From positions 794,336-858,335 of the forward strand of contig NC_019695.1 of assembly GCF_000317125.1 (NCBI RefSeq): a stretch of DNA of 64,000 nucleotides, written 5' to 3'. Positions 1 to 19,392 of the stretch are shown piece after piece. The DNA comes from Chroococcidiopsis thermalis PCC 7203 (GTDB lineage Bacteria; Cyanobacteriota; Cyanobacteriia; Cyanobacteriales; Chroococcidiopsidaceae). The notes under the pieces were generated by a model, which ran no database searches, was not told the origin of the DNA, and saw nothing but the letters and a program-made list of their open reading frames with translations. The stretch's first letter is position 1; every line of letters begins with the position of its first letter. A program made the position numbers and the translations under genes.

Positions 1-1623
1 CAGTCGCATTGCTAAAGCAACAATAGTCAGAGTTGGATTGGCAGCACCCCCAGTAGGAAAAACAGAACTGCCTGCGACGTACAAATTAGCAATGCCATGA
101 ATACAGCAGTTTTCATCGACCACACCTTGTTTGGGATCGACGTGCATTCGCGTTGTTCCCATGTGATGCATTCCACCGTAGTACTTGGGTTTAGTACGTC
201 CGGTCAGTTCGCGCCATGACTGAAACTGACCGAGATCGGCTTGAGCAATTTCTGCTCTAAGGATTTCTTCTACCTGCAAGTTGCTCTGAATTTCTAGCTC
301 GCTCGAATGCCAGCGGATGTGTTGTATTCTCCTGAGTCCCAGGCGATCGCGTTCCTCGCCTAGCGTGACTCGAATGTCTGGATTCGGTATTTGCTCCGTA
401 GCCGCCCAAACTTCAAACGCACCAAATCTTTTTTCATTATTTTGAAAGTACGACCAACCGCCTTCGCTAATGGTATAGGGCGTTTCTTCGATTTTAAAAG
501 TGCGTCTATAAATATGAGACTTAATTTCATCTATCCCATCAATTGCTACTTGCAAATGCGATCGCGCCTCTGGCAATTTGCCCCGTCGTATTGATGAGAG
601 AAAAGGTTTCAGAGACTTGACGGCAGGTGACTCGTATGATAAAGATTTCGGTACGATAATTAGACTCGTATTTAATAATTGCTGCTGGCGCATCACTGCG
701 TCTGTCAGACTCAGTTTGCCCATAATTAAAATGTTATTTGCCCAGCGGAGATCGTATAATGCTGTTGAATTAAATAACTGTCTATCTTTCGGTCGAAACA
801 CGCCAATTTGAAAAATTGGATGTTCCATAAAAAATCTGCCAACCAGATCGTTTTGGTTGCCTAATCCAACATTTTGAGTCTTGTTTGACAGCAGCAACAA
901 GCGAGCATTTTCAATTCCACCCGTGGCAAGAACGAAGATTTTGGCGGCTACCCAAAATTGATTTCCCGACAAACAAGCGACTCGAACGCGAGTTATCGCT
1001 TTAGCCGTATCGTTAGTTTCAATCTCGACAACATTCGCATTGAGATAAGTTGTAATGTTTGGCGATCGCGCAATTTCGCTTTTGAGTTCGTGCGTGAAGA
1101 CGTTGCGCGGTCCAAACTGATACATAGTCGTTTCAAGTCGCCCCTCAGCTAAAGGTAGCCGTGGAGTGCGATCGTCTTCCCAGTCTTCTGCATGGTAAGC
1201 GAAGGGTCGCAGTCGGCATAAGTGTTGAGCGCGTTCGTAAAACGGATCGAGGTGAGATTTGTCAAACGACCAGCCGCTATATGGCAACCAATCTCGCTGT
1301 TCAAAATCGATTTTGTCTAGTGGCAGCAGTCTGACGCTGTAGTGGTTTTCTCCGGTGCGATCTCTCCAGCGGTTAGCAGTGCCACCAAATTGACGACAGC
1401 GAGACCTGTCAAGCTTTTGTTTAATTTCTTCAACTATCCTGCCCTGGGAGAGAGACTGCGTGGCTTCATCCAACTCGGTTCCGCCGCTTTCGAGCAAACA
1501 AACGCGAAAGTTCTGCGATCGCAACTCATGTGCCAGCGTAGTTCCAGCGGGACCAGTACCGATGATGCAAACTTCGCTGTCAATGACTGTATCTTCTGGT
1601 AATGTCCTAGCATCAACAAACAT
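1..1623 (-). CDS. GMC-family FAD-dependent oxidoreductase (3' end beyond window)
   Basis: The frame is open with no stop from the ATG at 1623 to the window edge (541 codons), so the C-terminus is cut off, probably by only 10-30 residues. The N-terminus has the FAD-binding fold: CIIGTGPAG, then LLESGG about 25 residues later. Near the edge it ends in the GMC C-terminal signature NPTLTIVALAMRL, which holds the active-site Asn. Family knowledge: GMC enzymes oxidise alcohols or sugars with FAD. The substrate is unknown. It is a clear but diverged paralogue of the genes at 4817-6511 and 25188-26843. A repeat block (1701-1846) lies just upstream. The next upstream genes encode an acyltransferase and glycosyltransferases, so action on a glycan or acyl-glycan is plausible but inferred. 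Confidence 0.9.
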   Translation of the reverse strand, partial: MFVDARTLPEDTVIDSEVCIIGTGPAGTTLAHELRSQNFRVCLLESGGTELDEATQSLSQGRIVEEIKQKLDRSRCRQFGGTANRWRDRTGENHYSVRLLPLDKIDFEQRDWLPYSGWSFDKSHLDPFYERAQHLCRLRPFAYHAEDWEDDRTPRLPLAEGRLETTMYQFGPRNVFTHELKSEIARSPNITTYLNANVVEIETNDTAKAITRVRVACLSGNQFWVAAKIFVLATGGIENARLLLLSNKTQNVGLGNQNDLVGRFFMEHPIFQIGVFRPKDRQLFNSTALYDLRWANNILIMGKLSLTDAVMRQQQLLNTSLIIVPKSLSYESPAVKSLKPFLSSIRRGKLPEARSHLQVAIDGIDEIKSHIYRRTFKIEETPYTISEGGWSYFQNNEKRFGAFEVWAATEQIPNPDIRVTLGEERDRLGLRRIQHIRWHSSELEIQSNLQVEEILRAEIAQADLGQFQSWRELTGRTKPKYYGGMHHMGTTRMHVDPKQGVVDENCCIHGIANLYVAGSSVFPTGGAANPTLTIVALAMRL

Positions 1624-1700
1624 AATTAATTTGGCGAATCAAATTCGCGGCTACACAGACAAGACCTAATACATTTACGTGTCAGACCAAAGATCTTGGC

Positions 1701-1846
1701 GATCCCCCAACCCCCTTCAAAAGGGGGCAAGAGTTCTTTGGGGACAAGACCAAAGAGCTTGGCGATCCCCCAACCCCCTTCAAAAGGGGGCAAGAGTTCT
1801 TTGGAGGCAAGAGTTCCCACCTTTTTAAGGGGGGTTAGGGGGGATC
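1701..1846. repeat. G/C-run intergenic repeat (GATCCCCCAACCCC family), tandem copies
   Basis: Two near-identical direct copies (about 1690-1743 and 1756-1805) of a unit with GATCCCCCAACCCCCTTC, then AAAAGGGGGC and AAGAGTTCTTTGG, followed by an inverted version ending AGGGGGGATC. The same family recurs at 18437-18504, 25097-25163, 26871-27045 and 35700-35828. The C-run/G-run arms can fold into hairpins. No coding function seen. Confidence 0.85.
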
Positions 1847-1882
1847 TAGTCTTGACTGAAAAGTATTAGGGTTGAATATCTT

Positions 1883-2650
1883 TTAATTGCTGGGGCTGGG
1901 TACGAGATTTGACTCTGCTAAACTACTGCGCAGTTTCACGACACGGGCAGGCACGCCCAAAGCGATCGCGCCTTCCGGTATATCTTGCGTCACAACTGCA
2001 CCAGCACCAATGACAGCACCCTTACCAATGCGTACCCCATCTAGAACGATGACCCCAAAGCCTAACCAGACATCATCTTCGATCGCGATCCCTCCTTTGG
2101 TTTGTAAAGGTTGCTTCGCGATCGGCAGATCTGGCGCGATCGCATGATCGTAGGGATAGAAAGCACAATTGGGGGCAATCAAGACATTGCTGCCAATTTG
2201 AATTGCTGACTTGTAGGCTGAAAACTGGCAGCGGGGTTGAACTGATGTATTCTCTCCGATTTGCAAACTGCCACCATTCCCCGTCTGAATGCAAATATCC
2301 TGATGCAGGCGCACCCGATCGCCTAACTGAACTGAACCACTATTGCGATCCTCAAAAATCAAAACGCGATCGCTAATAAAAACGTTAGCGCCGAGTTTTA
2401 ATTGGGAGTGATACACGGTGGCACTAGGCGCGATATATCCTTTTGAGTTGTATTGAGCTAAACGACGACGCTCGTAGTAAGGTGGAATGAACCAGGTAGC
2501 AAGCCAAGTAGCAAATCGCCCGAAATAGCCTAATCCAGCAAATTTCATCCAAAAGCGCGACCAGATAGTTACGAGAAAGCTGAGTAATTTATCTGGTTGT
2601 CTTATTTTGCCAATTTGAGTCCAGATATTTTGAGTTAAACTGCGATCCAT
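1883..2650 (-). CDS. Hexapeptide-repeat (LbH) acyltransferase
   Basis: A 255-residue protein. After an N-terminal segment of about 80 residues it shows the repeating [LIV]-G-x4 pattern of a left-handed beta-helix (IQIGSNVLIAPN, IEDDVWLGFG, IGKGAVIGAGAVV). It ends in the typical IPEGAIALGVPARVVK. Family knowledge: such WbbJ/LacA-like enzymes O- or N-acetylate sugars using acetyl-CoA. The ATG at 2650 is chosen because a longer TTG start would overlap the upstream gene, whose stop is at 2655; with the ATG the genes are four bases apart. It probably acts with the GT14 gene upstream to acetylate the polysaccharide. The sugar acceptor cannot be read from sequence. Confidence 0.88.
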   Translation of the reverse strand: MDRSLTQNIWTQIGKIRQPDKLLSFLVTIWSRFWMKFAGLGYFGRFATWLATWFIPPYYERRRLAQYNSKGYIAPSATVYHSQLKLGANVFISDRVLIFEDRNSGSVQLGDRVRLHQDICIQTGNGGSLQIGENTSVQPRCQFSAYKSAIQIGSNVLIAPNCAFYPYDHAIAPDLPIAKQPLQTKGGIAIEDDVWLGFGVIVLDGVRIGKGAVIGAGAVVTQDIPEGAIALGVPARVVKLRSSLAESNLVPSPSN

Positions 2651-2654
2651 ATAT

Positions 2655-3614
2655 TCAGTCACAACTGTTACTCTTTTGAATACGTTCGGGTGCAAGTGGA
2701 GAATTATTTAAGGCTTGAGCGTCAAGCAAGTCCAAGATTTCACTATCTATCTCGGCATCAAATTTTCTGGCAAAATGAAAATTACCGTTAGTGACGATCG
2801 GATAGTCTTTAACAGTTAGCAACCTAGCATAACCGCCAAGTTCTAGAGGATAGTCATGATAACGCTTGTCATCATTACAAAGATTGAACTGCTGACTATT
2901 GACTAACACAGTTTGAACTAGAGATTCTTCAGGACCGATCGTTCTTTTGTAATACCTCAATATGTCAGGATGTTCGTTCAAGTAGTTCATTAAAAACTTG
3001 ACACAGGCTTGAGAAAGAGTATTCCAGTGCCATCCTCTGTAACATTTAAAATTGCGATTGAACGGAGTTTTTGTTTTCAGTCCGATCATAGAGTATCGCC
3101 ATTTTACAATCAGCGGTGTGTAGTGTTCAATTTTTCCAGAATACTTTCTTAGCAGCCAAGCGGCTGATTCTGGAAGTTGGATATACTGATTGAAAAATCG
3201 CTGAATACTCTTCTCATTCCAAGCGGACTTTTCTGCCAGCGGATCGTAATAGCGGATAAAGCCATCGTATTCAGTTTGAGCCAGAAATTCCTCAGTTTTA
3301 GATATAGGTTGAGTTGGGTAATCTTGACCGGAAAGACAAACTAACCAATCAAAATCAGATTTACGAGCGAGTAACCAATTAATTGCATCTAAATAAATTT
3401 CTAAAATTGAGGAATTACCTCTTGCAGCCGATTTATTTCTTTTGATTATTTCAACTTCCGAATAATTACCTACATCTCTTATATCTAAGTTAGACACACT
3501 AAAGTCATGATTAACCAAGACTATAGAGTTAGGGCTTTGTTTTTTAATAGTCCGAATTAGACGATAAATTTGCTGTGGATTTCTGTGACTTTGAATAAAG
3601 TAACATACCTTCAT
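2655..3614 (-). CDS. Core-2/I-branching (GT14-like) glycosyltransferase
   Basis: A 319-residue protein starting at an ATG. It begins with VCYFIQSHRNPQQIYRLI and has DWLVCLSGQDYPTQPI around residues 88-104, both characteristic of bacterial Core-2/I-branching beta-1,6-GlcNAc-transferase-like proteins. A GWHWNTLSQACVKF segment and a PEESLVQTVL segment in the C-terminal half fit the GT14 fold. The expected role is adding a branch sugar (GlcNAc- or xylose-type donor) to a growing glycan in the cytoplasm. It sits four bases upstream of the acyltransferase, so the two are probably co-transcribed. Donor and acceptor are unknown. Confidence 0.85.
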   Translation of the reverse strand: MKVCYFIQSHRNPQQIYRLIRTIKKQSPNSIVLVNHDFSVSNLDIRDVGNYSEVEIIKRNKSAARGNSSILEIYLDAINWLLARKSDFDWLVCLSGQDYPTQPISKTEEFLAQTEYDGFIRYYDPLAEKSAWNEKSIQRFFNQYIQLPESAAWLLRKYSGKIEHYTPLIVKWRYSMIGLKTKTPFNRNFKCYRGWHWNTLSQACVKFLMNYLNEHPDILRYYKRTIGPEESLVQTVLVNSQQFNLCNDDKRYHDYPLELGGYARLLTVKDYPIVTNGNFHFARKFDAEIDSEILDLLDAQALNNSPLAPERIQKSNSCD

Positions 3615-3782
3615 TTTTCTGCATGGTTAGATAAGTGAACGATGCAGATTGCCCCCCTGACGTAAGCCAAAATAACTTCGCCTTATTTGTGATTTTCATT
3701 CTTGTTTGTAGATGCTTGCCGTGTAATTAAAATGCTATTTCGATATGTAAAGGCACACAGATGTGCGCCCTTACCCTTTAAA

Positions 3783-4643
3783 CTAAAGGGCTAAAACTTG
3801 ATACTTGATACAACCTTGCAAGCGTCCCCAGCGGCGAGCAAAATGTGCCACCCATTTCATTCGGTTTTGCTGAGAAAAAATTTGCGGAGATTGCTTTAAT
3901 ATGCGCCACCAAGACTTTAAGCCTGCTTTCCAGGAAAGTTTAGGCATCCCTAGCGCTTTGTATTTTTTGTACAGCAGCACGTTGTACTCCCCTGCAAGAC
4001 GCGCCTGACGGTAGATAGCTCTTAAGCGATCGCGCAAGCGGTAATGAACCACTGCTTCTGGGACAAAATGGAGTTTTATGCCAGCAAGTTGCACCCTCCA
4101 GCAATAGTCAGTGTCTTGCACTTTGAGCATAGTTTCATCAAATCCACCAACAGCTTCATGGATCGAGCGCTTGATCCCAAGGTTACTACTAGAAGCATGG
4201 GGTAGATAAGGGGGATGGCTAGTTAGCAACTTATCTACCTGAGTCAGCGGGCGATACGTGAGCGTCCAAGGTTCGTTGAGTTTTGTGTACTCGCGCTTGC
4301 CAGCCACAAAATCGTGCTGGGAGAGCGCTTCGCCCATAGCCGATACCCATCCAGCAGCTACCTCATCATCGGCATCGCAAAATGCCAATGCCTCACCCGC
4401 AGCCACAGATGCACCCACATTTCTAGCGTGTGCCGCACCTTGCCGATCGGATGAGTCCACAATCTGTAGGTTAGGTAATCTTTCCTGATATTGCTCGGCG
4501 ATCGCGACTGTTTCATCTGTCGAACCGTTATCGGAAATAATAATTTCCCAAGGTTGATACCACTGTTGGGTTGTCAGTGCTTCAAGCTGACCGGAAATAG
4601 TGCCAGCTTCGTTGTAAGAGGGAATGATTACACTTAGTTTCAT
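3783..4643 (-). CDS. Family 2 glycosyltransferase (GT-A)
   Basis: A 286-residue protein. The N-terminal motifs are LSVIIPSYNE, IISDNGSTDET and FCDADDE (the DXD metal/nucleotide-sugar site), as expected of GT2. The C-terminal half has the usual acceptor region with TDYCWRVQLAG. The ATG at 4643 puts the first beta strand at the start; an in-frame GTG six codons earlier is less likely. AAGAG lies upstream of the ATG. It probably adds one sugar to an undecaprenyl-linked repeat unit. Lies within the minus-strand EPS region, separated from the GMC gene upstream by a 28-bp palindrome. Confidence 0.9.
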   Translation of the reverse strand: MKLSVIIPSYNEAGTISGQLEALTTQQWYQPWEIIISDNGSTDETVAIAEQYQERLPNLQIVDSSDRQGAAHARNVGASVAAGEALAFCDADDEVAAGWVSAMGEALSQHDFVAGKREYTKLNEPWTLTYRPLTQVDKLLTSHPPYLPHASSSNLGIKRSIHEAVGGFDETMLKVQDTDYCWRVQLAGIKLHFVPEAVVHYRLRDRLRAIYRQARLAGEYNVLLYKKYKALGMPKLSWKAGLKSWWRILKQSPQIFSQQNRMKWVAHFARRWGRLQGCIKYQVLAL

Positions 4644-4734
4644 AACTCTTTTTAGATGCACCCAGTTTGCGTTTGACGTTTAATCTTGTGCTAGGCGACT
4701 TTAAATAGCGATTCTCATTAGATCGCCATAAATC

Positions 4735-4762
4735 GTAGGGGCGCACATCTGTGCGCCCCTAC
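4735..4762. repeat. 28-bp interrupted palindrome, GTAGGGGCGCAC family
   Basis: GTAGGGGCGCAC, four central bases, then GTGCGCCCCTAC: a near-perfect inverted repeat able to form a strong hairpin. The same element occurs at 7703-7730, 9462-9489 and 16919-16946, with partial copies just upstream of the last and a degenerate copy near 3750-3775. All lie between minus-strand genes. Confidence 0.9.
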
Positions 4763-4816
4763 TTGCGGATCTCATCCTATGGAATAAGTCGCCGACACAA
4801 CAGCGGGTCGAGCAAG

Positions 4817-6511
4817 TTATCCGATCGCTCCTGCTGTGGCTTCAGCACGACTCATCTGCTCTTGAATTCGATCTGCTAGCCGAATGGCTAGAGCCACAAT
4901 CGTGAGTGTAGGATTGGAGAGTCCGCTGGTGGGGAAGACGGAACTACCAGCGATATATAAGTTGTGAATTCCATGCACTTGACAATGCTCGTCAACCACA
5001 CCTTCCCTGGGATTGTGACTCATGCGGGTTGTGCCGATGTGGTGGTATGAACCGCGCAGCGATCGCCAGGAAGCGTCATCGTCGCCCATTTCGATTTGCA
5101 TTTTGCCCAGTCCAGAACGCTCGAATTCTGCCGCAATTAATTGCTGCGATCGCTTAATCGTATACTTGTCAATCGGACTCAAACGCCAGTCAAGCTGGAC
5201 GCGATTCATCCCTAATTTATCGCGATCGCGGCTGAGGGTGATTCGGCTATCGGGATTCGGTGCTTGTTCCCCAATTAAGTGAGTTTCGCACAATTGCGGC
5301 TGTTTCGAGGAGCCTTTTTTCAGCAACTTCTGATAGGCTTTAGCCGCAATCCGATCGACATTGGCGATCGCCGTGGTCAGATCTTGAAGTAAAGTCGTGT
5401 CATTGCTGTGCTTGTTACCTTCCTTAATGCTGGGGAAATACTTCCGCCTGTGTTCCTTATGTTCCTGAAGCTTAGGAAAAGCTTGATGTCCTACCGGGCG
5501 CGGTTTACCCAAACGCTTCAATCGCGTCACGGCTCGTACCCATTCTTCCTCGTAAGGTATCAGTCTCGCGGCGAAGTTGAGAATTTGCTCGCGCTCTTGC
5601 ACTTCTTTCGATAGTCCTAGAGCCGTCGCCACAAATGTCTCATCAATCTGACAATTTCTGCCCGTGTATAGGGGGATTTGACGGGAAGGCTGTAGTTTCC
5701 CAGAAATTAAATAGGGATGCTCCATGAAGAATCTGCCCACCAAATCGTATTGGTTGCCGACTCCACCACTTTGCAGCCGGTTGGAAGCTAACAACAAGCG
5801 GGGGTTTTCAATTCCACCCGCTGCCAACACGAAGACTTTTGCTGCTACCGAGAACTGTTTCCCATCGGAGCTTGCTACCCGCAGCCGCGTCACGGCTTGA
5901 GCGCTGTCGTTGGTTTCAATCTCCAGCACATTAGCGTGGAGATAGGTAGTAATATTACTCGCCTGCTCGATCTCGGCGCGATAAGCGTCGCCAAAGCGTA
6001 AGTGTGTTGATGGGATAATCTGCCACAGATAAGTAGCCAGCTCGTCTGTCGAAAAGGGCACTTGTCGCCGTTGCTGTTGCGCTAATCCCTCTTGCCAGTA
6101 TGCCAAATCGTATTCAAACGGACCCAAATGACAAGCAGTTTGCGCCCGTTCGTAGTAGGGGTCTAGCTCCGCTTTGGGAAAACACCAACCGCTATAGGGC
6201 ATCCAAGCACGATGCTCGAAGTCAATCTCATCCATTGGACGACTCCAACCGCCCCAGAGATTGGTCGAACCGCCAAAATAGCGCCCCCGCGCTTCTTTCA
6301 AGGGAAAATAAGGCAGACCTGTATTCTCTCCCGCATACAGCGATTGAATCTGTTCCTCATAGTCGAATCCGCCACTTTCGAGCAAACAAACTTGTTCTTT
6401 GCGATCGCGCAATTCGCGTGCGAGGGTGATTCCTGCCGCACCAGCACCGATAATACAAATGTCTGTTTCTACCAGCGTCTCGGCTGGTAATTTCAAAGCA
6501 TCAACTAACAT
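4817..6511 (-). CDS. GMC-family FAD-dependent oxidoreductase (paralogue A)
   Basis: A 564-residue protein with an ATG start. The FAD dinucleotide-binding motif IGAGAAG is at about residues 21-27 and LLESGG follows. Mid-protein VLAAGGIENPRLLLAS is the GMC signature. The C-terminus carries YHHIGTTRMS (active-site His) and GLSNPTLTIVALAIRLADR (active-site Asn). Family knowledge: flavin-dependent oxidation of an alcohol or sugar hydroxyl. Residues 1-130 differ from paralogue B (25188-26843) at only four positions, but the central part, about 275-410, is strongly diverged. The 3' end of the carrier/thioesterase gene overlaps the start by 11 bases, indicating one transcript. Substrate unknown. Confidence 0.93.
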   Translation of the reverse strand: MLVDALKLPAETLVETDICIIGAGAAGITLARELRDRKEQVCLLESGGFDYEEQIQSLYAGENTGLPYFPLKEARGRYFGGSTNLWGGWSRPMDEIDFEHRAWMPYSGWCFPKAELDPYYERAQTACHLGPFEYDLAYWQEGLAQQQRRQVPFSTDELATYLWQIIPSTHLRFGDAYRAEIEQASNITTYLHANVLEIETNDSAQAVTRLRVASSDGKQFSVAAKVFVLAAGGIENPRLLLASNRLQSGGVGNQYDLVGRFFMEHPYLISGKLQPSRQIPLYTGRNCQIDETFVATALGLSKEVQEREQILNFAARLIPYEEEWVRAVTRLKRLGKPRPVGHQAFPKLQEHKEHRRKYFPSIKEGNKHSNDTTLLQDLTTAIANVDRIAAKAYQKLLKKGSSKQPQLCETHLIGEQAPNPDSRITLSRDRDKLGMNRVQLDWRLSPIDKYTIKRSQQLIAAEFERSGLGKMQIEMGDDDASWRSLRGSYHHIGTTRMSHNPREGVVDEHCQVHGIHNLYIAGSSVFPTSGLSNPTLTIVALAIRLADRIQEQMSRAEATAGAIG

Positions 6512-7667
6512 GATTACTCCCAGTCAATTCTGCTGTATTTAATGCGGCATCTAAGCTAGCTCTTAATTTCTCGGTCAAGCCTGCGACATGAGGTTCTTTG
6601 AGCATTGAGCCGTGATGACCGGAAACGTCGTGGCTTTCCAATTCTCCGACAAGGTTCCCCCAGCCGTATTGCGGATCTCGGTCGTACCAATCATCGGGTG
6701 TGGGAAAATCTCGTCCCATGTAGTACCAACCCATCGGGGGTTCGCTAGCGCGAAACAAAGTTACCTGACCTGGGTAAACTTGCGGTACGTAAGCTTTTAC
6801 TGCACGCCTGATACAAATTCCTATATATCTTCTTTTCCGTTCGTAGGGCCAGTTCAGCCACTTAATTCTGAATAATTGATATAGCCGACAAACATTTTTG
6901 TTGTATACTCTCAGCCATGCACTTCTGAGCATTTTTAAAGGATATTTGGCTCCCAGTCGGAAAAGGTTGCGCCAGTGACGCGCCAGTCTTTCTGAATTTG
7001 ATACTGGTGGGAAACTGCCAGGCACAAAGGTATCAAACAAGCCTAAAAAAGCGACTTGCTCGCCTTCTGCGTGCAACTGCTGGGCGATCTCATACGCCAC
7101 CAAGCCTCCAGAAGAAAAGCCGCCTACAAAGTAAGGTCCTTGCGGCTGGACGGTACGCATTTCTTGAATGTAGAAAGCCGCCATATCTTCAATTCGATCT
7201 AGGGCTGCTTCTTTGCCATCGACTCCGCGTGCTTGCAATCCATAAAAAGGCTGTTCCGTTCCCAAATGGTTAGCTAATTCGTTAAACACAAGCACGTTTG
7301 CGCCATTACCATGAACGCAAAAGAACGGTGGTTTCGAGCCATTTGGTTGAATTGGCACGAGAGAAGACCAAGATGGTGATGTTGTTTCACCGAGAACGCC
7401 TGCTAGTTGTTCCACCGTCGGCGACTGGAGCAAGGTAGATAGGGAAAGACTTTTGCCAAATGTTTGCTCGATTTGCGCAAACAGACGGACGGCGAGTAGC
7501 GAATCTCCCCCAATCTCAAAAAAATTGTCTCTGATGCTGATGGGCGTAATTTCTAAAAGCTGTTCCCAGATCTCGACCAGTTGAGTTTGGGTAGAATTCT
7601 GGGGTGCTACATAGTCTGCTTCTAAATTGGATTGGTCTAATCTAACTGTTTGGGCAGAATGGCTCAT
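6501..7667 (-). CDS. Acyl-carrier-protein/thioesterase didomain protein
   Basis: A 388-residue protein. Residues about 25-95 form a phosphopantetheine carrier domain: FFEIGGDSLLAVRLF contains the modified Ser. From about 105 on there is an alpha/beta-hydrolase thioesterase: FCVHGNGANVLVF (oxyanion region), GGFSSGGLVAYEIA (GxSxG nucleophile) and a terminal SGHHGSMLKEP catalytic His. This didomain order is that of NRPS/PKS termination modules. As a stand-alone protein it could accept an acyl group from the neighbouring ligase and release or transfer it. The ATG at 7667 is chosen over a GTG ten codons upstream. It overlaps the GMC gene downstream. Needs a phosphopantetheinyl transferase, which is not in the window. 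Confidence 0.9.
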   Translation of the reverse strand: MSHSAQTVRLDQSNLEADYVAPQNSTQTQLVEIWEQLLEITPISIRDNFFEIGGDSLLAVRLFAQIEQTFGKSLSLSTLLQSPTVEQLAGVLGETTSPSWSSLVPIQPNGSKPPFFCVHGNGANVLVFNELANHLGTEQPFYGLQARGVDGKEAALDRIEDMAAFYIQEMRTVQPQGPYFVGGFSSGGLVAYEIAQQLHAEGEQVAFLGLFDTFVPGSFPPVSNSERLARHWRNLFRLGAKYPLKMLRSAWLRVYNKNVCRLYQLFRIKWLNWPYERKRRYIGICIRRAVKAYVPQVYPGQVTLFRASEPPMGWYYMGRDFPTPDDWYDRDPQYGWGNLVGELESHDVSGHHGSMLKEPHVAGLTEKLRASLDAALNTAELTGSNHVS

Positions 7668-7702
7668 AATAGCTGTTGGCGATGGGATGAGATACACGAC
7701 TT

Positions 7703-7730
7703 GTAGGGGCGCACGGCTGTGCGCCCCTAC
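7703..7730. repeat. 28-bp palindrome, GTAGGGGCGCAC family
   Basis: GTAGGGGCGCAC, GGCT, GTGCGCCCCTAC. Between the start of the carrier/thioesterase gene and the stop of the ligase gene, inside what looks like one operon. May act as an attenuator or 3'-end stabiliser; that is inference. Confidence 0.9.
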
Positions 7731-7760
7731 AGATGTATGGCAATAATGCGGTTCAGTCGA

Positions 7761-9401
7761 TCAATTTCGGCGTTTGAAAATATTCCCCAACGATTTGAGT
7801 ACGCCGCCGCCGCTTGTATCGTTACTAGGCACTGATGTTGTAGCGACTAAAGGAATTGGTTTGGCGATCGCCCCTACAGCAGCATTGCCTTTTTTCAGCG
7901 CGGCTTCGTTGGCTGCTTCATCGCGCAAAACCCGCTTCAACACTTTGCCTGTGGGGTTTTTGGGAATGGAATCGACAAATTTAATCGTTTTTGGCATCTT
8001 GTAAGCTGCCATTCTTTCGGCGCAGAAGGCAATCATCTGTTTTTCGGTGACGTTACAATCTGGCTTCAGAATGATGTTGGCTTTGACGATTTCGCTTTTT
8101 TCTAAATCGGGTACGCCATAGACAGCAACTTCAGCAACGGCTGGATGTTCGTAGATGACGTTTTCAACTTCCGTGGGATACACCTTAAACCCAGCCACGT
8201 TGATCATGTCCTTAGAGCGATCGACGATGTAAAAGAAGCCATCTTCGTCCATGCGTCCGATATCGCCACTGTAAAACCAACCATTTTTAATCGCTTCGGC
8301 GGTTTCAAACGGACGATTCCAGTAACCGAGCATGACGTTGGGACCCCGAATCGCGATCTCGCCTATCTCCCCTGGCTCGACTTCTTTGCCATTGTTGACA
8401 ATTTTCATTTCCACATTTTCGATCGCCGTCCCAACCGACCCAGGTTTATAGATATAGTCGTGGTTGTAGCTGGCGCAGGGCGATGTTTCGGTTAAACCGT
8501 AGCCTTGATGAACCACCAGCCCGTACTTGTCGTACCACTTCTGAGCCACTTCTGTTGGGAGGGGTGCAGCACCAGAAAAGAAAAACCGCACTGACTTGAG
8601 TTGGTCTTTAGGCAAATCCATATTCAGCAAAACAAGAAAGACTGACGGCACGCCAAAAAACATGGTGATTTGTTCGTCAGTGACAGACTTCAGGATTTTT
8701 GTCAGATCGAAATTGCGGTGTAATACCAGCGTGGCACACGCATTAAGTCCGGCATTCAAAACGGCATTTTGCCCGAAACAATGGAATAGCGGCAGATAGA
8801 GTAAGATCCGATCCTCAGCCTGCATTCCACAACAATGCTGTTGCGAGTAGCTGTTAGAAATTAAATTACCATGAGACAGGGTAGCTCCTTTAGGAAACCC
8901 CGTCGTTCCCGAAGTATAGACGATCGCCGCCGGAGCGTAGCGATCCATTTCTATCCCACGGGCGCTGGGTGAAGCATTCGCCATCAGTTCGGCGAGGCTA
9001 GTTCCCTCAGTAGCCGTACCTTCAGCAATCAGAACGTGTTTGAGCTGCGGTAAGTCTTGTTGGGGAATATTTTTCACCAGATCTGCTGTCGTCACCACAG
9101 CCTTAGCACCGCAATCGTCGAGGATAAACTTGACTTCACTGCTTTTGAGCATGGCATTGAGCGAGACGGCGATCGCGCCCAGTTTCAAAATTCCCAAATA
9201 GGAGATGATAAATTCGGGAATATTGGGCAAAAATAAGGCAATGCGATCGCTACGGTGAACGCCCAATTCTCGCAACCCGTTGGCAACGCGATTAGCTAGC
9301 CGATCTAACTCAGCATAAGTAAAAGTCGTGCCTTCAAAAATCAGTGCAGGTTTATCGGGAAATAAATGACAACCGCGCTCTATGTGCTGTGTGATGTTCA
9401 T
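7761..9401 (-). CDS. AMP-forming acyl-CoA/aryl-CoA ligase (FadD/4CL superfamily)
   Basis: A 546-residue ANL-superfamily enzyme. The P-loop YTSGTTGFPKGA lies at about residues 162-173, with GYGLTETSP, the hinge region YSGDIGRMDEDGFFYIVDR, and the C-terminal catalytic Lys in NPTGKVLKR. It has a 40-residue Ser/Gly-rich tail ending FKRRN. Reaction: carboxylic acid + ATP + CoA (or carrier thiol) gives the acyl thioester. Motifs do not separate fatty-acid from 4-coumarate ligases. An ammonia-lyase on one side and a carrier protein on the other make an aryl acid a real candidate substrate. The ATG at 9401 is chosen; an in-frame TTG 13 codons upstream is unlikely. Confidence 0.9.
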   Translation of the reverse strand: MNITQHIERGCHLFPDKPALIFEGTTFTYAELDRLANRVANGLRELGVHRSDRIALFLPNIPEFIISYLGILKLGAIAVSLNAMLKSSEVKFILDDCGAKAVVTTADLVKNIPQQDLPQLKHVLIAEGTATEGTSLAELMANASPSARGIEMDRYAPAAIVYTSGTTGFPKGATLSHGNLISNSYSQQHCCGMQAEDRILLYLPLFHCFGQNAVLNAGLNACATLVLHRNFDLTKILKSVTDEQITMFFGVPSVFLVLLNMDLPKDQLKSVRFFFSGAAPLPTEVAQKWYDKYGLVVHQGYGLTETSPCASYNHDYIYKPGSVGTAIENVEMKIVNNGKEVEPGEIGEIAIRGPNVMLGYWNRPFETAEAIKNGWFYSGDIGRMDEDGFFYIVDRSKDMINVAGFKVYPTEVENVIYEHPAVAEVAVYGVPDLEKSEIVKANIILKPDCNVTEKQMIAFCAERMAAYKMPKTIKFVDSIPKNPTGKVLKRVLRDEAANEAALKKGNAAVGAIAKPIPLVATTSVPSNDTSGGGVLKSLGNIFKRRN

Positions 9402-9461
9402 GACGCTGGTATATTGACAGTGTTTAATATCCGTTTTCAATCAGACGAGATTCACGATCGT

Positions 9462-9489
9462 GTAGGGGCGCACAGCTGTGCGCCCCTAC
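9462..9489. repeat. 28-bp palindrome, GTAGGGGCGCAC family
   Basis: GTAGGGGCGCAC, AGCT, GTGCGCCCCTAC: fully palindromic. Lies five bases after the ammonia-lyase stop and upstream of the ligase start, so it could be a processing or attenuation hairpin between these two genes. Confidence 0.9.
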
Positions 9490-9493
9490 CAAT

Positions 9494-11188
9494 TTATTTT
9501 TTCAAACTAGACAAAACACTTTGCATTGCTGCCACAATCCGACCACCAGAGGCAATATCAGCGGCAATGCGAGCAATATGATCGTCTAGCGGTTGCTCGT
9601 TATCGTTGCGGATGTAGGGACGATCTGCTGAAGGTGGTACGCCAACGACCTCGCGCACGGCTAGGTACAACTCTCTGGTTGTAGGTGAAACGCACTCGCT
9701 TGCGTCGTAATGGTCTGCAATTAAGTGCGTCCGCAAATCGACAGCTTGAACTCCAAACATCAGCGCCACTGCCATATATTGCTGGAAGATCTCGATCGAT
9801 CGCCGTGCTAAATTGGCGGAAGCAAATCCTTGGCTGTTGATATTTTGGTTGAATTGTTCGGCATGGGTGGGGTAGCGATCGGCGATCGAGTTGCCATAGA
9901 ACGATAATATTGGCATGATCGAGTTGCCAGTAATTTGCAGTGCCTTCAAGCCCATATTGACGCTGCGCTCTCTGTTACCAACTAAAGACGCTGATAGCCC
10001 GTGGTTAAATTCGGGAGCGACCAAAAGCGCAATTTGGACATCGAGATGCTTGGCTAACATCCCCATGTGGTAGCGCAGGCGATCCATTCCCATGCCTACG
10101 TACTGTCCGAGGAAGTTGCCACCGTGGTAGCTAGCTTGTTGCTCGGCATCGATTAGGGGATTGTCAGTCACCGAGTTCATTTCTTGCTCGATTTGAGTCG
10201 TAATCTCTGCCAAACCATCGACGATGGGACCCATATACTGGGGCAAGCAACGCAGGGAATAACGATCTTGGATCGGATCTCCACCGCGATAGTCATGCGA
10301 GCCATTTAACTCATCGCGGATTAACAGCGAACCCACCAAAAGATCGAGCATTTGACTAGCTGCCCACTTTTGCCCAGGATGCGGTTTGCGATCGTGGATA
10401 AACGGGTGGAATGATTGATTCGTCCCGTACAAACCTTGAATCGCAAGGGCGTGCGCTCCCATTGAGAGTGCGAGGAGAACTCTCGCGTCGTAAACGCAAT
10501 TTGCCGCAATCCCCGTCATTACCGAAGTCCCGTTCATCATCGCCAGCCCTTCTTTAGGTAGGAGTGGCAATGGTTGTAATCCCAGTCGATTTAGAGCTGT
10601 GGGAGCATCAACCTCTTCCCCGTTGAAGTCAACTTTATAACAGGTATCGAGTCCGGTAATTGCCCCTGTAATGTATGCCAAAGGCGTGAGATCGCCACTC
10701 GCCCCAATTGAGCCAAATTCATGAACGTGTGGCGTGACATCGGCATTCAAGAAAGTTTCTACGCGCCGGATCAGTTCGAGCCGAATCGCTGACGCTCCAT
10801 ACATATGGGAATTAGCCCGCAAGAGCATCGCCGCTCGTACGTCTGGTTTCGACAACTTTTGTCCCGCGCCTGCTTTGTGATACCAAATCAAGTTATTTTG
10901 CAACAGTTGAGCGGATTCAGGCGAAATTACAACATTCGCCATGCCACCAAAACCAGATGTTACGCCGTAAATTGGCGCTCCCGATGCCACAGCCTCAGCA
11001 ATGTAGTCGCACGATGCCTGAACGCCTTGCAAAACATCTTCGCGATCGCTCAAGCGCACTTTTGCGCCATGCCGTGCCACGCTCACGACATCATCTATGG
11101 TCAGGCTATTATCACCGACAACGACAGTCTTATTCGGATCGTTAACTAAAGGCAGTGACTTGTTTGTTTGGAAATCAACTACGTTCAT
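9494..11188 (-). CDS. Aromatic amino-acid ammonia-lyase (PAL/TAL/HAL family)
   Basis: A 564-residue protein, the length of characterised cyanobacterial PALs (about 567). The MIO cofactor triad Ala-Ser-Gly lies in SIGASGDLTPLAYITG (ASG at about 163-165). The catalytic Tyr is in APIYGVTSGFGG (Tyr74). Other family blocks are GLAMMNGTSVMTG, NSVTDNPLID, QDRYSLRCLPQY and NQNINSQG. Reaction: removal of ammonia from Phe, Tyr or His to give cinnamate, p-coumarate or urocanate. Overall it resembles Anabaena/Nostoc PAL, but the substrate-selectivity pair is Tyr-His (residues 103-104) where I recall Phe-Leu in those PALs; His there favours Tyr. The ATG at 11188 is chosen over a distant upstream start because it matches the family N-terminus. 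Upstream lie a terminator and an RNA-like element. Confidence 0.93.
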   Translation of the reverse strand: MNVVDFQTNKSLPLVNDPNKTVVVGDNSLTIDDVVSVARHGAKVRLSDREDVLQGVQASCDYIAEAVASGAPIYGVTSGFGGMANVVISPESAQLLQNNLIWYHKAGAGQKLSKPDVRAAMLLRANSHMYGASAIRLELIRRVETFLNADVTPHVHEFGSIGASGDLTPLAYITGAITGLDTCYKVDFNGEEVDAPTALNRLGLQPLPLLPKEGLAMMNGTSVMTGIAANCVYDARVLLALSMGAHALAIQGLYGTNQSFHPFIHDRKPHPGQKWAASQMLDLLVGSLLIRDELNGSHDYRGGDPIQDRYSLRCLPQYMGPIVDGLAEITTQIEQEMNSVTDNPLIDAEQQASYHGGNFLGQYVGMGMDRLRYHMGMLAKHLDVQIALLVAPEFNHGLSASLVGNRERSVNMGLKALQITGNSIMPILSFYGNSIADRYPTHAEQFNQNINSQGFASANLARRSIEIFQQYMAVALMFGVQAVDLRTHLIADHYDASECVSPTTRELYLAVREVVGVPPSADRPYIRNDNEQPLDDHIARIAADIASGGRIVAAMQSVLSSLKK

Positions 11189-11414
11189 GTAGAAATTCTC
11201 TGTAGAGGACAAAAGCAATTCGCAATTCGCAATTAAATTCAAGTGCGCTCCGACTGATTTACCCAATCGCGCTGTTTCGACAATCAAATGCAATCAAATG
11301 TTCAACTCGCCCGTTTAAAAAGCTGGTAAAAAGCTGATTCGCTGACCGCGCGGCGCGAGGGAACAGGCAACCCGTTCCCCGCTTACTGCATAACCTGTGC
11401 GAAATTTAGATATG

Positions 11415-11440
11415 CAAAAAAGGCGCGATATTTCGCGCCT
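11415..11440 (-). terminator. Intrinsic terminator-type hairpin with U-run (minus strand)
   Basis: On the minus strand AGGCGCGA-AATA-TCGCGCCT is a perfect 8-bp GC-rich stem with a four-base loop, followed directly by a T-run (TTTTTT). It lies about 230 bases upstream of the ammonia-lyase ATG and downstream of the RNA-like element at 11555-11613. It may end a transcript from the small membrane gene, or form the off-state of a leader controlling the lyase. Confidence 0.8.
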
Positions 11441-11554
11441 TCATACAACTAAATAATAAATATTGTTTGACTCGTGTTGAGGATGGGACTATTATCTGAC
11501 TATCTGACCGAGCAGCTCATTTCCAAAAAGTAACAATACTTCTAACTCACTAGG

Positions 11555-11613
11555 ACTGTTAAACTGCACTCTCGGTGTCGTTTCTAACAACCCACAATGC
11601 CATGCACTGGGAT
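11555..11613 (-). ncRNA. Putative structured RNA element, copy 1
   Basis: Read on the minus strand: CAGTGCATGGCATTG hairpin, then GGGTTGTTAGA, the block GACACCGAGAGTGCA, then TTTAACAG closing a second stem (GTTAGA with TTTAAC). The same order of blocks with compensating changes occurs at 49134-49199, and in both places a strong terminator and a gene follow on the same strand. Not recognised as a known riboswitch or cyanobacterial sRNA family. Strand is inferred from the terminators. Confidence 0.5.
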
Positions 11614-11707
11614 AAGTAAACTAGTAAGTTGTATACGTTACTTATAACGAAAAATACTGCGATTGTCAAACAATTTTCGGATGAATAGACTCACCAGTAA
11701 AGATCGT

Positions 11708-11908
11708 TCATGCGGTTGGATGCTCGATCCGTTGTGACAATACATATTGTTCTGGGTATGGTTCGGGATCGTTCGCAGATGAATCGATCGCGGTAGCACT
11801 CGTAGTATTGTGAAAGGAAAATATACCGCGAGTGTAGTCCCACACGAGAGCGATCGCAAAGATCGTAATTATCAGTAAAAATCCCACTAGCAGTAAAATC
11901 AACAACAT
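11708..11908 (-). CDS. Small single-span membrane protein, unknown function
   Basis: A 66-residue protein. Residues 1-23 are almost purely hydrophobic (MLLILLLVGFLLIITIF) and form one transmembrane span or an uncleaved anchor, followed by a polar, acidic and Pro-rich tail. The start is supported by GAAAGG eight bases before the ATG. Two other short frames overlap it but lack this combination. It lies upstream of the RNA-like element and the ammonia-lyase on the same strand. Function not recognised. Confidence 0.55.
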   Translation of the reverse strand: MLLILLLVGFLLIITIFAIALVWDYTRGIFSFHNTTSATAIDSSANDPEPYPEQYVLSQRIEHPTA

Positions 11909-12007
11909 TATTACGCCCTTTCAGCAAAAATTATGTAACTGAATATACGCAAACAAATCGTCACTCTAAACACTGTATTGTTTTTGACGCTCGAACTTAG
12001 TGAAGAA

Positions 12008-13012
12008 TTAGTAAAGATGTCGATGAAAAAAGTTTTCTAACTGCGCCAGTAGCAAGGGAGAATCAAATTTTTTCCCGTGTCCGCCGCCTTTCACAATTTC
12101 TAATGACACCTCCACTCCCGCCTGCTGTAGCGCCTCAAACAATAATTGACTTTGATTGAGCGGCACTATAAAGTCATCATCTGCATGGAAAATCGCGAAA
12201 GGGGGAGCATCTTCATTGACATAAGCGATCGGGTTTGCCTGCATTGCTTTTTCCTGATTTTCTTCAACAATTCCGCCAATCAGCAATGCTTCGGGAGCAT
12301 CAGCTGCGCTATGGGATATCTGTCGAGGAAAGTCATTTATGCGGCTGAAATCTGTAGGACCAAACCAGTCGCACACAGCTTGGACGCGACTAGAAAAATT
12401 CTCCCAGCCCCCCTCACCTTCCAATTCCTTAACACCAGCAGTTGTCCCCAAAAGCGCTGCTAAATGACCGCCCGCCGACCTACCCCAGACTCCAATGCGA
12501 TCGCAATTTAGATGCAATTCTTTCGCATGAGCGCGCAAAAAACGCACTGCACATTTACAATCTTCAATTTGGGCTGGAAAAATTGCTTCATGACTCAAGC
12601 GATATTCAATGCTAGCGCACAAATATCCTTGGCGAGCAAAGGGCAGTAACAGTTCGATTCCTTGCTCTTTACTTCCTTCCATCCACGCTCCACCATGTAT
12701 CCATATTAGAGCAGGCATGGGCATTTCAGGTAAGATTTTAGGGTGGAGAATGTTCATTTTTAGCGGGCGCTGTCTACCCCGAGTAAATGAGATATCCCGC
12801 CGATAAATTAAGTCATGAGGAATTTTAGTTTTCTGGAATTTGTAGTGAAAAAGATTGAATTTGGGAAGTCGTAGGGGCGGGTTTCTACAGGATATCCCTG
12901 AAACAACCCAGAATTGTGCGGATAAACCCGCCCGTACGGAAGTCGGGAATCGGAAATTGCTTGTTAACTCAGCTTTTATATAATTCATCATTAGTAGGGT
13001 GGGCAATGCCAT
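12008..13012 (-). CDS. Alpha/beta-hydrolase esterase (BD-FAE/lipase-like) with repeat-derived N-terminus
   Basis: A 334-residue frame. The hydrolase domain starts near residue 62: IWIHGGAWMEG (HGG oxyanion motif), GVWGRSAGGHLAALLG (GxSxG nucleophile), FHADDDFIVP (Asp) and GGGHGKKF (His). Family knowledge: hydrolysis of short-chain or aryl esters. That fits removal of acyl or hydroxycinnamoyl groups from the polysaccharide made here, but this is inference. Residues about 25-47 are encoded by a 67-bp MITE-like element (12871-12937) with a 7-bp target duplication. The true start is therefore uncertain. The ATG at 13012 has AAGGG five bases upstream; without the insertion this frame would not join the hydrolase frame. 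Confidence 0.8.
   Translation of the reverse strand: MALPTLLMMNYIKAELTSNFRFPTSVRAGLSAQFWVVSGISCRNPPLRLPKFNLFHYKFQKTKIPHDLIYRRDISFTRGRQRPLKMNILHPKILPEMPMPALIWIHGGAWMEGSKEQGIELLLPFARQGYLCASIEYRLSHEAIFPAQIEDCKCAVRFLRAHAKELHLNCDRIGVWGRSAGGHLAALLGTTAGVKELEGEGGWENFSSRVQAVCDWFGPTDFSRINDFPRQISHSAADAPEALLIGGIVEENQEKAMQANPIAYVNEDAPPFAIFHADDDFIVPLNQSQLLFEALQQAGVEVSLEIVKGGGHGKKFDSPLLLAQLENFFHRHLY
12871..12937. mobile_element. MITE-like element with 14-bp terminal inverted repeats and 7-bp TSD
   Basis: Begins GTAGGGGCGGGTTT and ends AAACCCGCCCGTAC, inverted repeats with one mismatch. It is flanked on both sides by GGAAGTC (12864-12870 and 12938-12944), a 7-bp direct repeat read as a target-site duplication. 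A relative with the same ends is at 58069-58136. It carries no transposase and must have been moved in trans. It lies inside the 5' part of the esterase frame. Confidence 0.75.
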
Positions 13013-13223
13013 GTTACCCTTGTTTACTATGTTTTTGGGTAGGCATCAATTATTTTTAATACTTCAAATTTAACGCTTAAATTTTACTGAATATATATTT
13101 TCAACTTTGTCAAGTCAAACAATATTAGTTTGAATAATATCAATTCATCGAATTAGTAGATGCAGCCCGTGAAAGTGAGCCATCTCAATCATAGTGTTTA
13201 TTGGCTACTGAGCCATCTTCTAT

Positions 13224-14066
13224 TCAATCACGCGGAGCAATATCTTCGTATCTAGCGTTAGCATCTCCAACCCTAACTTCATCAAAATAAAGTTCTCTTT
13301 CGCTAATGGTCGATTTATCTGGGTAGTTTTTCCAATCACCCTTATATATTCCAATTTTGAGATATGGTCCCCTCGCATCATTATAGTTATTCGGTCCATT
13401 TCTGCTCACAACTAATTTGCCATCTTGCCAAACCTCCAATCGACCATTTGAACCACTAGACCACTTAACACGAAACACGAAGTCTGTCCACTTTCCGGTT
13501 TGGTAAAGACCTAAATCTACTACCTCTTTACCTTCTGGAACTACTGTAACTCGTTTTGAGTCCCATTTTCTGTTTAAAATGAATTTACCATCTTTTGTAC
13601 TGAGAGAAAGAGCTGGAGATTTCCATTTTTCTCCTAAGTTCTTATCTGGTAAATCGTGCCATTGAGCGATAATTTCACTAGATGGATCTTGTTGGTAATC
13701 AGAAGGTAAGAAAACACTAAATCCATACCATATTTCTGAATCTGGCGGAACTTCTCCAAGTTTCAATTCGGCACGCTTCACACCATATAGGCGAGCATCC
13801 TCTTTTTTCAGAGTAAACTTAATAGCTTGGTTTCCTGCGCGGATAGGAGAGTTGACAATCTCAGCTGAATAGTTACAGCAAAGTTCTGTTCCCCATTCAG
13901 AGTAACCCGATTCAAAATCACTGAGAAAAACGAGAGTGTCACTTTTGACTTTACTACTCAAAGGCATCAACCAAATTGTTACCAAGACTAGAAGTAACTT
14001 CGTTATCGATCTAAGAAATACAAAATCTATCCACTGTTGATGTCGATCGCGATGATTATTAAACAT
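13224..14066 (-). CDS. Secreted polysaccharide lyase (heparin-lyase-like jelly roll)
   Basis: A 280-residue protein. Residues about 18-42 (FLRSITKLLLVLVTIWLMPL) are a signal peptide or anchor after a charged N-terminus. Then comes a beta-rich domain with FLSDFESGYSEWGTE, KRAELKLGEVP, EIWYGFSVFLPSDY, AQWHDLPD, WTDFVFRVKW and GPYLKIGIYKG, the pattern of the Polysacc_lyase (PF14099) family. Expected role: cleavage of uronic-acid-containing polysaccharide in the periplasm or outside. It is related to, but distinct from, the pair at 34013-34837 and 36515-37324. Next to a uronic-acid-forming dehydrogenase and Kdo genes it probably trims or releases the cell's own polymer. Confidence 0.85.
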   Translation of the reverse strand: MFNNHRDRHQQWIDFVFLRSITKLLLVLVTIWLMPLSSKVKSDTLVFLSDFESGYSEWGTELCCNYSAEIVNSPIRAGNQAIKFTLKKEDARLYGVKRAELKLGEVPPDSEIWYGFSVFLPSDYQQDPSSEIIAQWHDLPDKNLGEKWKSPALSLSTKDGKFILNRKWDSKRVTVVPEGKEVVDLGLYQTGKWTDFVFRVKWSSGSNGRLEVWQDGKLVVSRNGPNNYNDARGPYLKIGIYKGDWKNYPDKSTISERELYFDEVRVGDANARYEDIAPRD

Positions 14067-16012: not shown

Positions 16013-16013
16013 G

Positions 16014-16961
<948 letters not shown>

Positions 16962-16964
16962 CTA

Positions 16965-18365: not shown

Positions 18366-18436
18366 TGTTATTTTCCTATTAATAGTAGTGGTGCGTAGTG
18401 CGTGATTTATTGCCAAATACTTTTTGGTTAAGGCAA

Positions 18437-18504
18437 GATCCCCCCTAACCCCCCTTAAAAAGGGGGGAACAAAAAGCCCCCGATTTGGCGGGGGTTGGGG
18501 GATC
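18437..18504. repeat. GATCCCCCCTAACCCC family repeat hairpin
   Basis: GATCCCCCCTAACCCCCCTT with AAAAAGGGGGG, followed by CCCCCGATTTGGCGGGGG and a closing GGGGGATC. Two nested inverted repeats bounded by GATC. Same family as 1701-1846, 25097-25163, 26871-27045 and 35700-35828. Confidence 0.85.
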
Positions 18505-18540
18505 TCCAAGATCTGCGTTACTAACCGAGATATATTGGAT

Positions 18541-19281: not shown

Positions 19282-19309
19282 TTTCAGTTATCAATATTGG
19301 GGAACAGAG

Positions 19310-19392
19310 GAGACAATTCAATTCGCAATTCACAATTGAGACAAGAGGGACAACACAACTACCAATTACCAATTACCAACTACCACTCCCAA
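19310..19392. repeat. STRR block (AATTCGCAATTC and ACCAATT units)
   Basis: Tandem short units: AATTCGCAATTCACAATT, then repeated ACCAATT / ACCAACT heptamers up to about 19388. Typical cyanobacterial STRR DNA between kdsB and kdsD. No gene. Confidence 0.8.

Follow-up and report, generated by a model that had tools for sequence, protein, structure and literature searches.

A candidate hydroxycinnamoylation cassette in a polysaccharide locus of Chroococcidiopsis thermalis PCC 7203

Introduction

What is an aromatic ammonia-lyase doing among the genes for a cyanobacterial polysaccharide? The Chroococcidiopsis group is known for habitats of desiccation and ultraviolet (UV) exposure, and coumarate is a plant-like, UV-absorbing acid. 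Here, we analyse a 64,000-nucleotide stretch of Chroococcidiopsis thermalis PCC 7203 (contig NC_019695.1, positions 794,336 to 858,335; hereafter the window), in which an ammonia-lyase, an AMP-forming ligase and a fused carrier-thioesterase lie in line inside an exopolysaccharide locus (Table 1). A sequence-only reading of this DNA had joined these three genes and an adjacent GMC oxidoreductase into one module, thought to activate cinnamate or coumarate and to release it or pass it to a sugar. We propose that the window carries a hydroxycinnamoylation cassette within a sheath or capsular polysaccharide locus, a proposal to which we assign a probability of about 0.42, and that its members differ from those first suggested.

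A four-gene cassette in one cyanobacterial family

The conserved unit comprises a BD-FAE-family esterase, the lyase, the ligase and the carrier-thioesterase. We searched 19 genomes of the family Chroococcidiopsidaceae at E-value thresholds of 1e-100 (lyase), 1e-80 (ligase), 1e-30 (BD-FAE esterase) and 1e-60 (carrier-thioesterase), with mechanical open frames serving as gene calls outside annotated records. The lyase, ligase and esterase share an identical distribution, each being present in the same nine genomes. The carrier-thioesterase query matches in 17 of the 19, and matches below 1e-130 are found only in the nine with a lyase, where every copy is free-standing. All nine, which span three genera, keep the order esterase, lyase, ligase, carrier-thioesterase on one strand; in locus L139, a GT61 gene stands between the ligase and the carrier-thioesterase. 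The esterase, overlooked in the sequence-only reading, lies upstream of the lyase and travels with the module. The predicted order of lyase, ligase and carrier-thioesterase thus extends beyond this genome to every lyase-bearing member of the family sample; the place given to the GMC enzyme is not supported.

The GMC gene occurs in 12 of the 19 family genomes, including three without a lyase (G161, G174 and G206, the last with a partial match covering residues 1-324 only). It directly follows the carrier-thioesterase solely in the three members of the window's genus, and the six sister-genus genomes have it at another place in the locus, some 7-14 kb away from the lyase. On this distribution we rejected it as a module member: the four-gene order that includes it is not kept beyond the window's genus, and it is better seen as a polysaccharide gene that has come to adjoin the cassette there. 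The window's polysaccharide locus holds two further GMC paralogues, at 25188-26843 (80% identical to the first) and at the left edge, 1-1623 (44%).

The polysaccharide locus can exist without the cassette. Genome G161, from another genus of the family, has an orthologous polysaccharide locus with counterparts of the GMC enzyme (74% identity), the GT2 glycosyltransferase (70%), the branching glycosyltransferase (67%), the hexapeptide transferase (70%) and a PolyST-like protein (57%). The 18 kb of this locus that were searched contain no match to the lyase, ligase, carrier-thioesterase or BD-FAE esterase, and the genome has no lyase, ligase or BD-FAE esterase at the thresholds used. Because they are present in this cassette-less locus, the hexapeptide transferase, a GDSL enzyme and the glycosyltransferases compared are not cassette-specific. 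In 20-kb stretches from the six sister-genus genomes, a Gloeocapsopsis contig among them, the cassette again lies among polysaccharide genes. Neighbour groups there, typed by running Pfam on one member of each, include GT2 in all six stretches, GT4, ABC-exporter and rhamnose-epimerase types in five each, an initiating sugar transferase in four and a pyruvyl transferase in two. The neighbours have been reshuffled between genera, and the cassette itself has been retained.

Wider sampling places the full combination in this family. Among 291 genomes drawn from the order, with at most six candidates scored per genome, the lyase (E 1e-120) was found in 35 and the carrier-thioesterase (E 1e-90) in 22. 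The latter gave 24 matches, of which nine are the free-standing cassette copies of the family and 15 are parts of frames at least 860 residues long. Among 386 genomes drawn from the phylum (at most four candidates each), two carrier-thioesterase matches were found at E 1e-110, both in Chroococcidiopsidaceae. From these draws, the triad of lyase, ligase and carrier-thioesterase looks confined to Chroococcidiopsidaceae. Conservation across cyanobacteria, against which the sequence-only reading was to be checked, was not found, since the free-standing carrier-thioesterase appeared in no other family of either draw.

A predicted tyrosine-type lyase and a predicted coumarate ligase

The window lyase is the sole PF00221 match in the genome (6.69 Mb, three contigs). 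Its closest solved chains are 2nyf, from Nostoc punctiforme, and 2nyn, which we take to be NpPAL and AvPAL, respectively. At the two positions associated with aromatic-ring selectivity it has Tyr-His, as against Phe-Leu in both of these structures. We compared 87 lyase rows: the window, 80 loci from named genomes (the best 80 of 157 confirmed) and six sister-family loci, with L009 and L134 taken as one contig and L080 cut at the selectivity positions. All nine cassette lyases share the Tyr-His pair and the Ala-Ser-Gly triad of the methylidene-imidazolone (MIO) cofactor. Tyr-His also occurs in all six Herpetosiphonaceae rows, two of which are H. aurantiacus DSM 785, the species of HaTAL1. Phe-Leu is found in AvPAL, NpPAL, all six rows linked to polyketide synthases (PKS) and five of six 'c19-type' loci, and furanolide-type loci are mixed.

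His89 of RsTAL presumably falls at the first position of this pair. The window lyase has its histidine at the second and therefore follows the Herpetosiphon pattern, not that of RsTAL. The RsTAL residue is its selectivity histidine (PMC9002059), and HaTAL1 is reported among the tyrosine ammonia-lyases that yield 4-coumarate without considerable cinnamate (PMC10360455). By this likeness, the cassette lyase very probably acts on tyrosine. In a tree of 84 of the 87 rows (L009 and two lyase frames above 700 residues dropped; G148 and G186 not included), the six sister lyases form a firm clade. The lyases of G148 and G186 are 98-100% identical to that of the window. A plasmid search with the window lyase returned 852 records, every one below 60% identity.

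The lyase and ligase are long-standing partners. In 59 of the 80 named loci the lyase has a same-strand ligase relative, within 1 kb in 49 and at 1-5 kb in 10; the DNA covered shows none in the remaining 21, six of which have fewer than 600 bases beyond the lyase. Other neighbours vary, and include a thiamine pyrophosphate (TPP) enzyme with a ketoacyl synthase III (KAS III)-like protein in the furanolide type, PKS genes and others. The furanolide type was recognised by its TPP and KAS III-like neighbours, and the comparison of the cassette with CybB and CybC was drawn through loci of this type. In the cyanobacterin pathway, CybB is reported to deaminate L-tyrosine to 4-coumaric acid, which CybC converts to 4-coumaroyl-CoA (PMC13288894, PMC12395478). 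The two are homologous to the cassette lyase and ligase, lie on the same strand and follow the same substrate logic. The proposed route from tyrosine or phenylalanine through coumarate or cinnamate to a thioester is thus best supported, by homology, for tyrosine, coumarate and its thioester. Consistent with this, the seven cassette ligases in a tree of 63 of 64 rows (L009 dropped; ligases trimmed to roughly 505-520 residues; G148 and G186 not included) form a clade (support 100/100) nested among furanolide-locus ligases, inside a clade of 30 rows (99/94), 17 of them of furanolide type. There is accordingly strong reason to predict that the cassette ligase is a coumarate ligase.

It could instead be argued that the ligase activates fatty acids, with which the carrier-thioesterase lipidates the polysaccharide, and that the lyase is unrelated. 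The window ligase scores above the cut-off of an NCBIfam long-chain-fatty-acid-CoA ligase subfamily (501.7 against 476 bits) and its closest solved chain is FadD13. However, feruloyl-CoA synthetase and 4CL2 follow closely, a lyase is the same-strand partner within 5 kb in the 59 loci above, and CybC, although termed a long-chain acyl-CoA synthetase, is reported to convert coumaric acid (PMC12395478), so the long-chain label is no strong objection. On these solved-chain neighbours and the position in the tree, we set the fatty-acid reading aside; homology makes a preference for long fatty acids unlikely, and lipidation as the role of the whole cassette is highly improbable.

Four of the six sister loci have a 3-deoxy-D-arabino-heptulosonate 7-phosphate (DAHP) synthase adjoining the lyase, with 66-72% identity to the DAHP synthases of loci L014, L021 and L033, and a DAHP synthase group occurs in 28 of the 80 named lyase loci. 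We read its position as aromatic supply. A candidate DAHP synthase in the window was rejected, as the gene at 16014-16850 is a 3-deoxy-D-manno-octulosonate (KDO)-8-phosphate synthase, and the 819-bp gap preceding the window lyase showed no remnant of a DAHP synthase.

Two other settings of the pair were observed. In Nostoc and relatives (L032, L034, L035, L081, L021 and L033), a Phe-Leu-type lyase is followed by a ligase and PKS genes, and such loci possibly make aromatic-starter polyketides. Downstream of the pair in L008, L010, L011, L013, L014 and L072 stand two conserved proteins, one of about 230 and the other of about 260 residues; the members tested (L008:8224-8919 and L014:14408-15196) have no Pfam match at E 1e-5.

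A carrier-thioesterase with the fold of Pks13 and EntF

The cassette ligases carry a feature that may suit them to a carrier protein. The C-terminus of all nine is a conserved basic tail, about 40 residues long, with G-V-x-K-(A/S)-L-G-N-(L/I)-F-K near its end; of 57 ligases from named loci, the single one that has it, L009, belongs to a cassette. Over its last 30 residues the ligase has a net charge of +3 to +5, and the N-terminus of the carrier one of -2 to -6, again in all nine, which suggests docking between the two. Carrier loading also seems natural to the ligase family, because its seven long members (645-664 residues) have a fused carrier domain in all four that were scanned. Such fusions are present in the three scanned PKS-type loci (L021, L033 and L034), which share their lyase and ligase families with the cassette but differ in their Phe-Leu lyases, downstream PKS genes and lack of a full-length carrier-thioesterase match. 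We consider it likely that the cassette carrier is loaded with a coumaroyl group.

The carrier and catalytic motifs of the didomain protein are intact. All nine copies keep the GGDS carrier serine, the GFSSGG serine and the G(H/N)H histidine motif of the thioesterase (TE), and Ser195, Asp222 and His362 are invariant in a four-sequence alignment that includes two distant relatives. Over carrier and TE together, the top NCBIfam match is Pks13 (97.9 bits), followed by EntF (95.4). An AlphaFold model (mean predicted local distance difference test score 73, built from four sequences) confirmed the fold only; its neighbours are the ends of the nonribosomal peptide synthetases (NRPS) AB3403 and EntF, the Pks13 TE and the human fatty acid synthase TE. 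The window protein has no ketosynthase or acyltransferase domain and is not a Pks13 family member, yet by analogy it may work like one. In mycobacteria, the AMP-forming ligase FadD32 likewise feeds a carrier, that of Pks13, whose carrier-TE didomain has the same fold; this TE is reported to release its product on polyols, preferably trehalose, and thereby to acylate a sugar (PMC9210659). The cassette differs in its predicted aromatic acid and in having neither ketosynthase nor acyltransferase domains. Compared with EntF-type NRPS, it shares the two-domain architecture and fold, but its didomain is free-standing and has neither a condensation nor an adenylation domain.

TEs of the EntF type build oligomeric esters, which raises the idea that the TE joins p-coumaroyl units, 4-hydroxyl onto the next carboxyl, into an aromatic polyester or dimer exported to the sheath, with no sugar acylated. 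EntF is among the closest relatives in both fold and sequence, and p-coumarate brings its own nucleophile. Against this, nothing in the sequences singles oligomerisation out, and the co-conserved BD-FAE esterase, from a family acting on carbohydrate esters (PMC8165983), fits sugar esters better. We regard oligomerisation as very unlikely.

A proposed route from activated coumarate to the polysaccharide

Taken together, the cassette suggests the following route. The lyase would deaminate L-tyrosine to p-coumarate and the ligase would form coumaroyl-AMP, two steps well supported by homology. The free-standing carrier would then receive the coumaroyl group on its phosphopantetheine arm, a step in which the basic tail of the ligase and the acidic N-terminus of the carrier may assist. 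In the weakest step, the serine of the fused TE would take up the acyl group and pass it to a hydroxyl, as the Pks13 TE does with trehalose; that hydroxyl might belong to a sugar, to a lipid-linked repeat unit or to polysaccharide under elongation. The BD-FAE-type esterase may trim, edit or move coumaroyl esters, and the GMC enzyme, although no member of the cassette, probably oxidises a sugar of the same polysaccharide. The expected product would be a p-coumaroyl-ester polysaccharide, UV-absorbing and open to cross-linking. The argument for the acceptor is an inference from elimination and analogy: other candidate transferases occur without the cassette, which leaves the TE and the BD-FAE esterase as first candidates. 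Transfer of the acyl group to polysaccharide is thus proposed tentatively, at somewhat less than even odds.

The esterase family takes its name from an enzyme that strips xylan of ferulate and acetate (PMC8165983). With this bifunctional feruloyl/acetyl-xylan esterase the cassette esterase shares PF20434 and a GxSxG serine motif, which is present in all nine copies. The described enzymes come from polysaccharide utilisation loci (PMC8165983), whereas the cassette esterase lies in a biosynthetic locus.

Another donor is conceivable. Coumaroyl-CoA may be the real substrate of a separate transferase, such as the hexapeptide acyltransferase or a GDSL enzyme of the sister loci, leaving the carrier-thioesterase to edit or regulate. 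CybC, the closest studied ligase known to us, is reported to yield a CoA thioester (PMC12395478), and a hexapeptide transferase is present in the window's locus, as are GDSL enzymes in the sister loci. Yet both enzymes also occur in the cassette-less G161 locus, and the carrier-thioesterase motifs are kept in all nine cassettes. We think this division of labour quite unlikely.

The locus might also be incidental, with the cassette making a small, diffusible coumaroyl ester or amide as a specialised metabolite. The same lyase-ligase pair does sit elsewhere in furanolide-type and PKS-type neighbourhoods, and carrier-thioesterase didomains are ordinary NRPS ends, the 15 other matches of the order draw all lying in long frames. 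But the cassette is in a polysaccharide locus in nine of nine cases, despite reshuffled neighbours, and the corresponding G161 locus exists without it. Moreover, the window and the 18 other loci compared contain no match to the cytochrome P450, chorismate mutase, TPP (CybE type) or KAS III-like furanolide synthase (CybF type) proteins of other lyase loci, with three representatives of each searched at E 1e-5. Furanolide synthesis in the window was rejected on the missing TPP and KAS III-like matches, and the cassette further departs from furanolide clusters in its free-standing carrier-thioesterase, BD-FAE esterase, polysaccharide setting and conserved extra ligase tail. A diffusible product therefore seems unlikely to us.

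Several observations weigh against hydroxycinnamoylation of the polysaccharide. The co-occurrence of the cassette genes is a contrast of three genera with four in one family, and so reflects few independent events. The window lyase joins the six sister lyases at a support of only 72, although the ligase tree does unite the two. DAHP synthase is absent from five of the nine cassette loci, including all three of the window's genus. The gap that follows the lyase and the one that follows the ligase each hold a dispersed palindrome, described below, so a single transcript for the cassette is not certain. The Pks13 match is far below the curated cut-off of 2100 bits, EntF-type TEs score close to Pks13 or better, and a TE sequence does not tell whether the enzyme hydrolyses, cyclises, oligomerises or transfers. 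Given that CybC makes a CoA thioester, a bypass of the carrier is conceivable. The solved chain closest to the window esterase is Lip_vut4, no export signal on this esterase is evident by eye (a predictor was not run), and the enzyme that gave BD-FAE its name also deacetylates (PMC8165983). Finally, methanol extracts of capsular and released Leptolyngbya polysaccharides are reported to have p-coumaric acid as their chief hydroxycinnamic acid (PMC5153682), but this is an extraction result, and the accessible parts of that report offer neither evidence of covalent linkage nor genes.

Novelty and implications

The lyase-ligase pair of furanolide clusters, the carrier-thioesterase and the polysaccharide locus are each already known as parts. 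In the literature consulted, to which only partial access was available, we found no description of their combination. Nor did that literature, in which subscription journals are mostly outside coverage and absence is thus unproven, contain a hydroxycinnamate gene system for a bacterial or cyanobacterial polysaccharide. The claim that no such system had been described therefore stands, within that coverage, for the combination, and falls for the lyase-ligase half.

We speculate, with considerable reserve, that the cassette is a bacterial counterpart of feruloylated plant cell walls, in which a TE moves carrier-bound p-coumaroyl groups onto sheath polysaccharide and a furanolide-type lyase-ligase pair has been re-routed for the purpose. 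If so, it would provide a genetic route to bacterial polysaccharides decorated with phenolic esters, and a set of genes through which aromatic UV screening or cross-linking of sheaths could be tested. It would also demonstrate re-use of the furanolide-type pair, identify the carrier-thioesterase as an enzyme for placing hydroxycinnamates on sugars, and explain one use of AvPAL/NpPAL-type lyases in cyanobacteria.

Gloeocapsin, a dark UV-screening pigment of unsettled structure from Gloeocapsa, a member of Chroococcidiopsidaceae, is a lead for the cassette, not evidence; proposals for its chemistry include a coumarin or a flavonoid (PMC10359912, citing Lara et al. 2022). Other lineages are reported to contain the pigment as well, and the order and phylum draws, in which its producers are perhaps not included, had no free-standing carrier-thioesterase outside the family. 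That coumaroyl esters or their coupling products contribute to gloeocapsin is a long shot.

Gene layout and surroundings

The whole module lies on the minus strand. Gene coordinates and Pfam matches agree with the positions, strand, order and 11-base overlap between the carrier-thioesterase and GMC frames that the sequence-only reading had given. Gaps of 92 bp and 63 bp separate lyase from ligase and ligase from carrier. The carrier-thioesterase frame opens with GTG, with an ATG about 10 codons further downstream, and the true start of the esterase is probably later than that of its frame.

Table 1. Cassette genes and selected neighbours in the window
Feature	Position	Strand	Basis
BD-FAE-family alpha/beta-hydrolase (feruloyl/acetyl-xylan esterase family)	12008-13012	-	PF20434, 220.7 bits
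Aromatic ammonia-lyase, predicted tyrosine type	9494-11188	-	PF00221, 491 bits; Trp-Tyr-His motif; MIO triad Ala-Ser-Gly
AMP-forming hydroxycinnamate ligase (predicted)	7761-9401	-	PF00501 + PF13193; basic C-terminal tail of about 40 residues
Free-standing peptidyl-carrier-protein/type I thioesterase didomain	6501-7697	-	PF00550 + PF00975
GMC oxidoreductase, polysaccharide locus, outside the conserved cassette	4817-6511	-	PF05199
GT2 glycosyltransferase (context)	3783-4661	-	PF00535; copy in cassette-less locus L164 70% identical
Core-2/I-branching-type glycosyltransferase (context)	2655-3614	-	PF02485; L164 copy 67% identical
Hexapeptide-repeat acyltransferase (context, not cassette-specific)	1883-2695	-	PF00132; L164 copy 70% identical

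The exopolysaccharide setting was likewise confirmed. The window encodes a Wzy_C-domain protein, a Wzc-like protein (a TIGR01007 match under the cut-off), KdsA and KdsB (both above their cut-offs), a KpsF-family isomerase and many glycosyltransferases. The KDO genes, including a haloacid dehalogenase (HAD) protein that is probably KdsC, lie at 15446-20388 near a PF07388 polysialyltransferase-like protein, and several genes of this region are retained in sister loci.

A 28-bp palindrome with the core GTAGGGGCGCAC-NNN-TGTGCGCCCCTAC occurs at 4735-4762, 7703-7730, 9462-9489 and 16919-16946, that is, in the gaps after the GMC, ligase and lyase genes and upstream of KdsA. It is a dispersed repeat, matched in the genome 90 times in the forward and 89 times in the reverse direction, and present three times in locus L132 of G148. 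Scanning 1-13300 for promoters and terminators revealed no excess relative to shuffled sequence (22 against a mean of 19.8, and 13 against 14.2), and the window has no Rfam match at gathering scores and no detected tRNA.

Further along, four similar proteins lie in a row at 28177-33891; a 52% match between the last of these and the PF04577 protein L139:13042-14328 led us to class the row as GT61-like. The same biosynthetic locus holds a PF14099-type polysaccharide lyase at 13224-14066, which the proteins at 34013-34837 and 36515-37324 resemble by eye.

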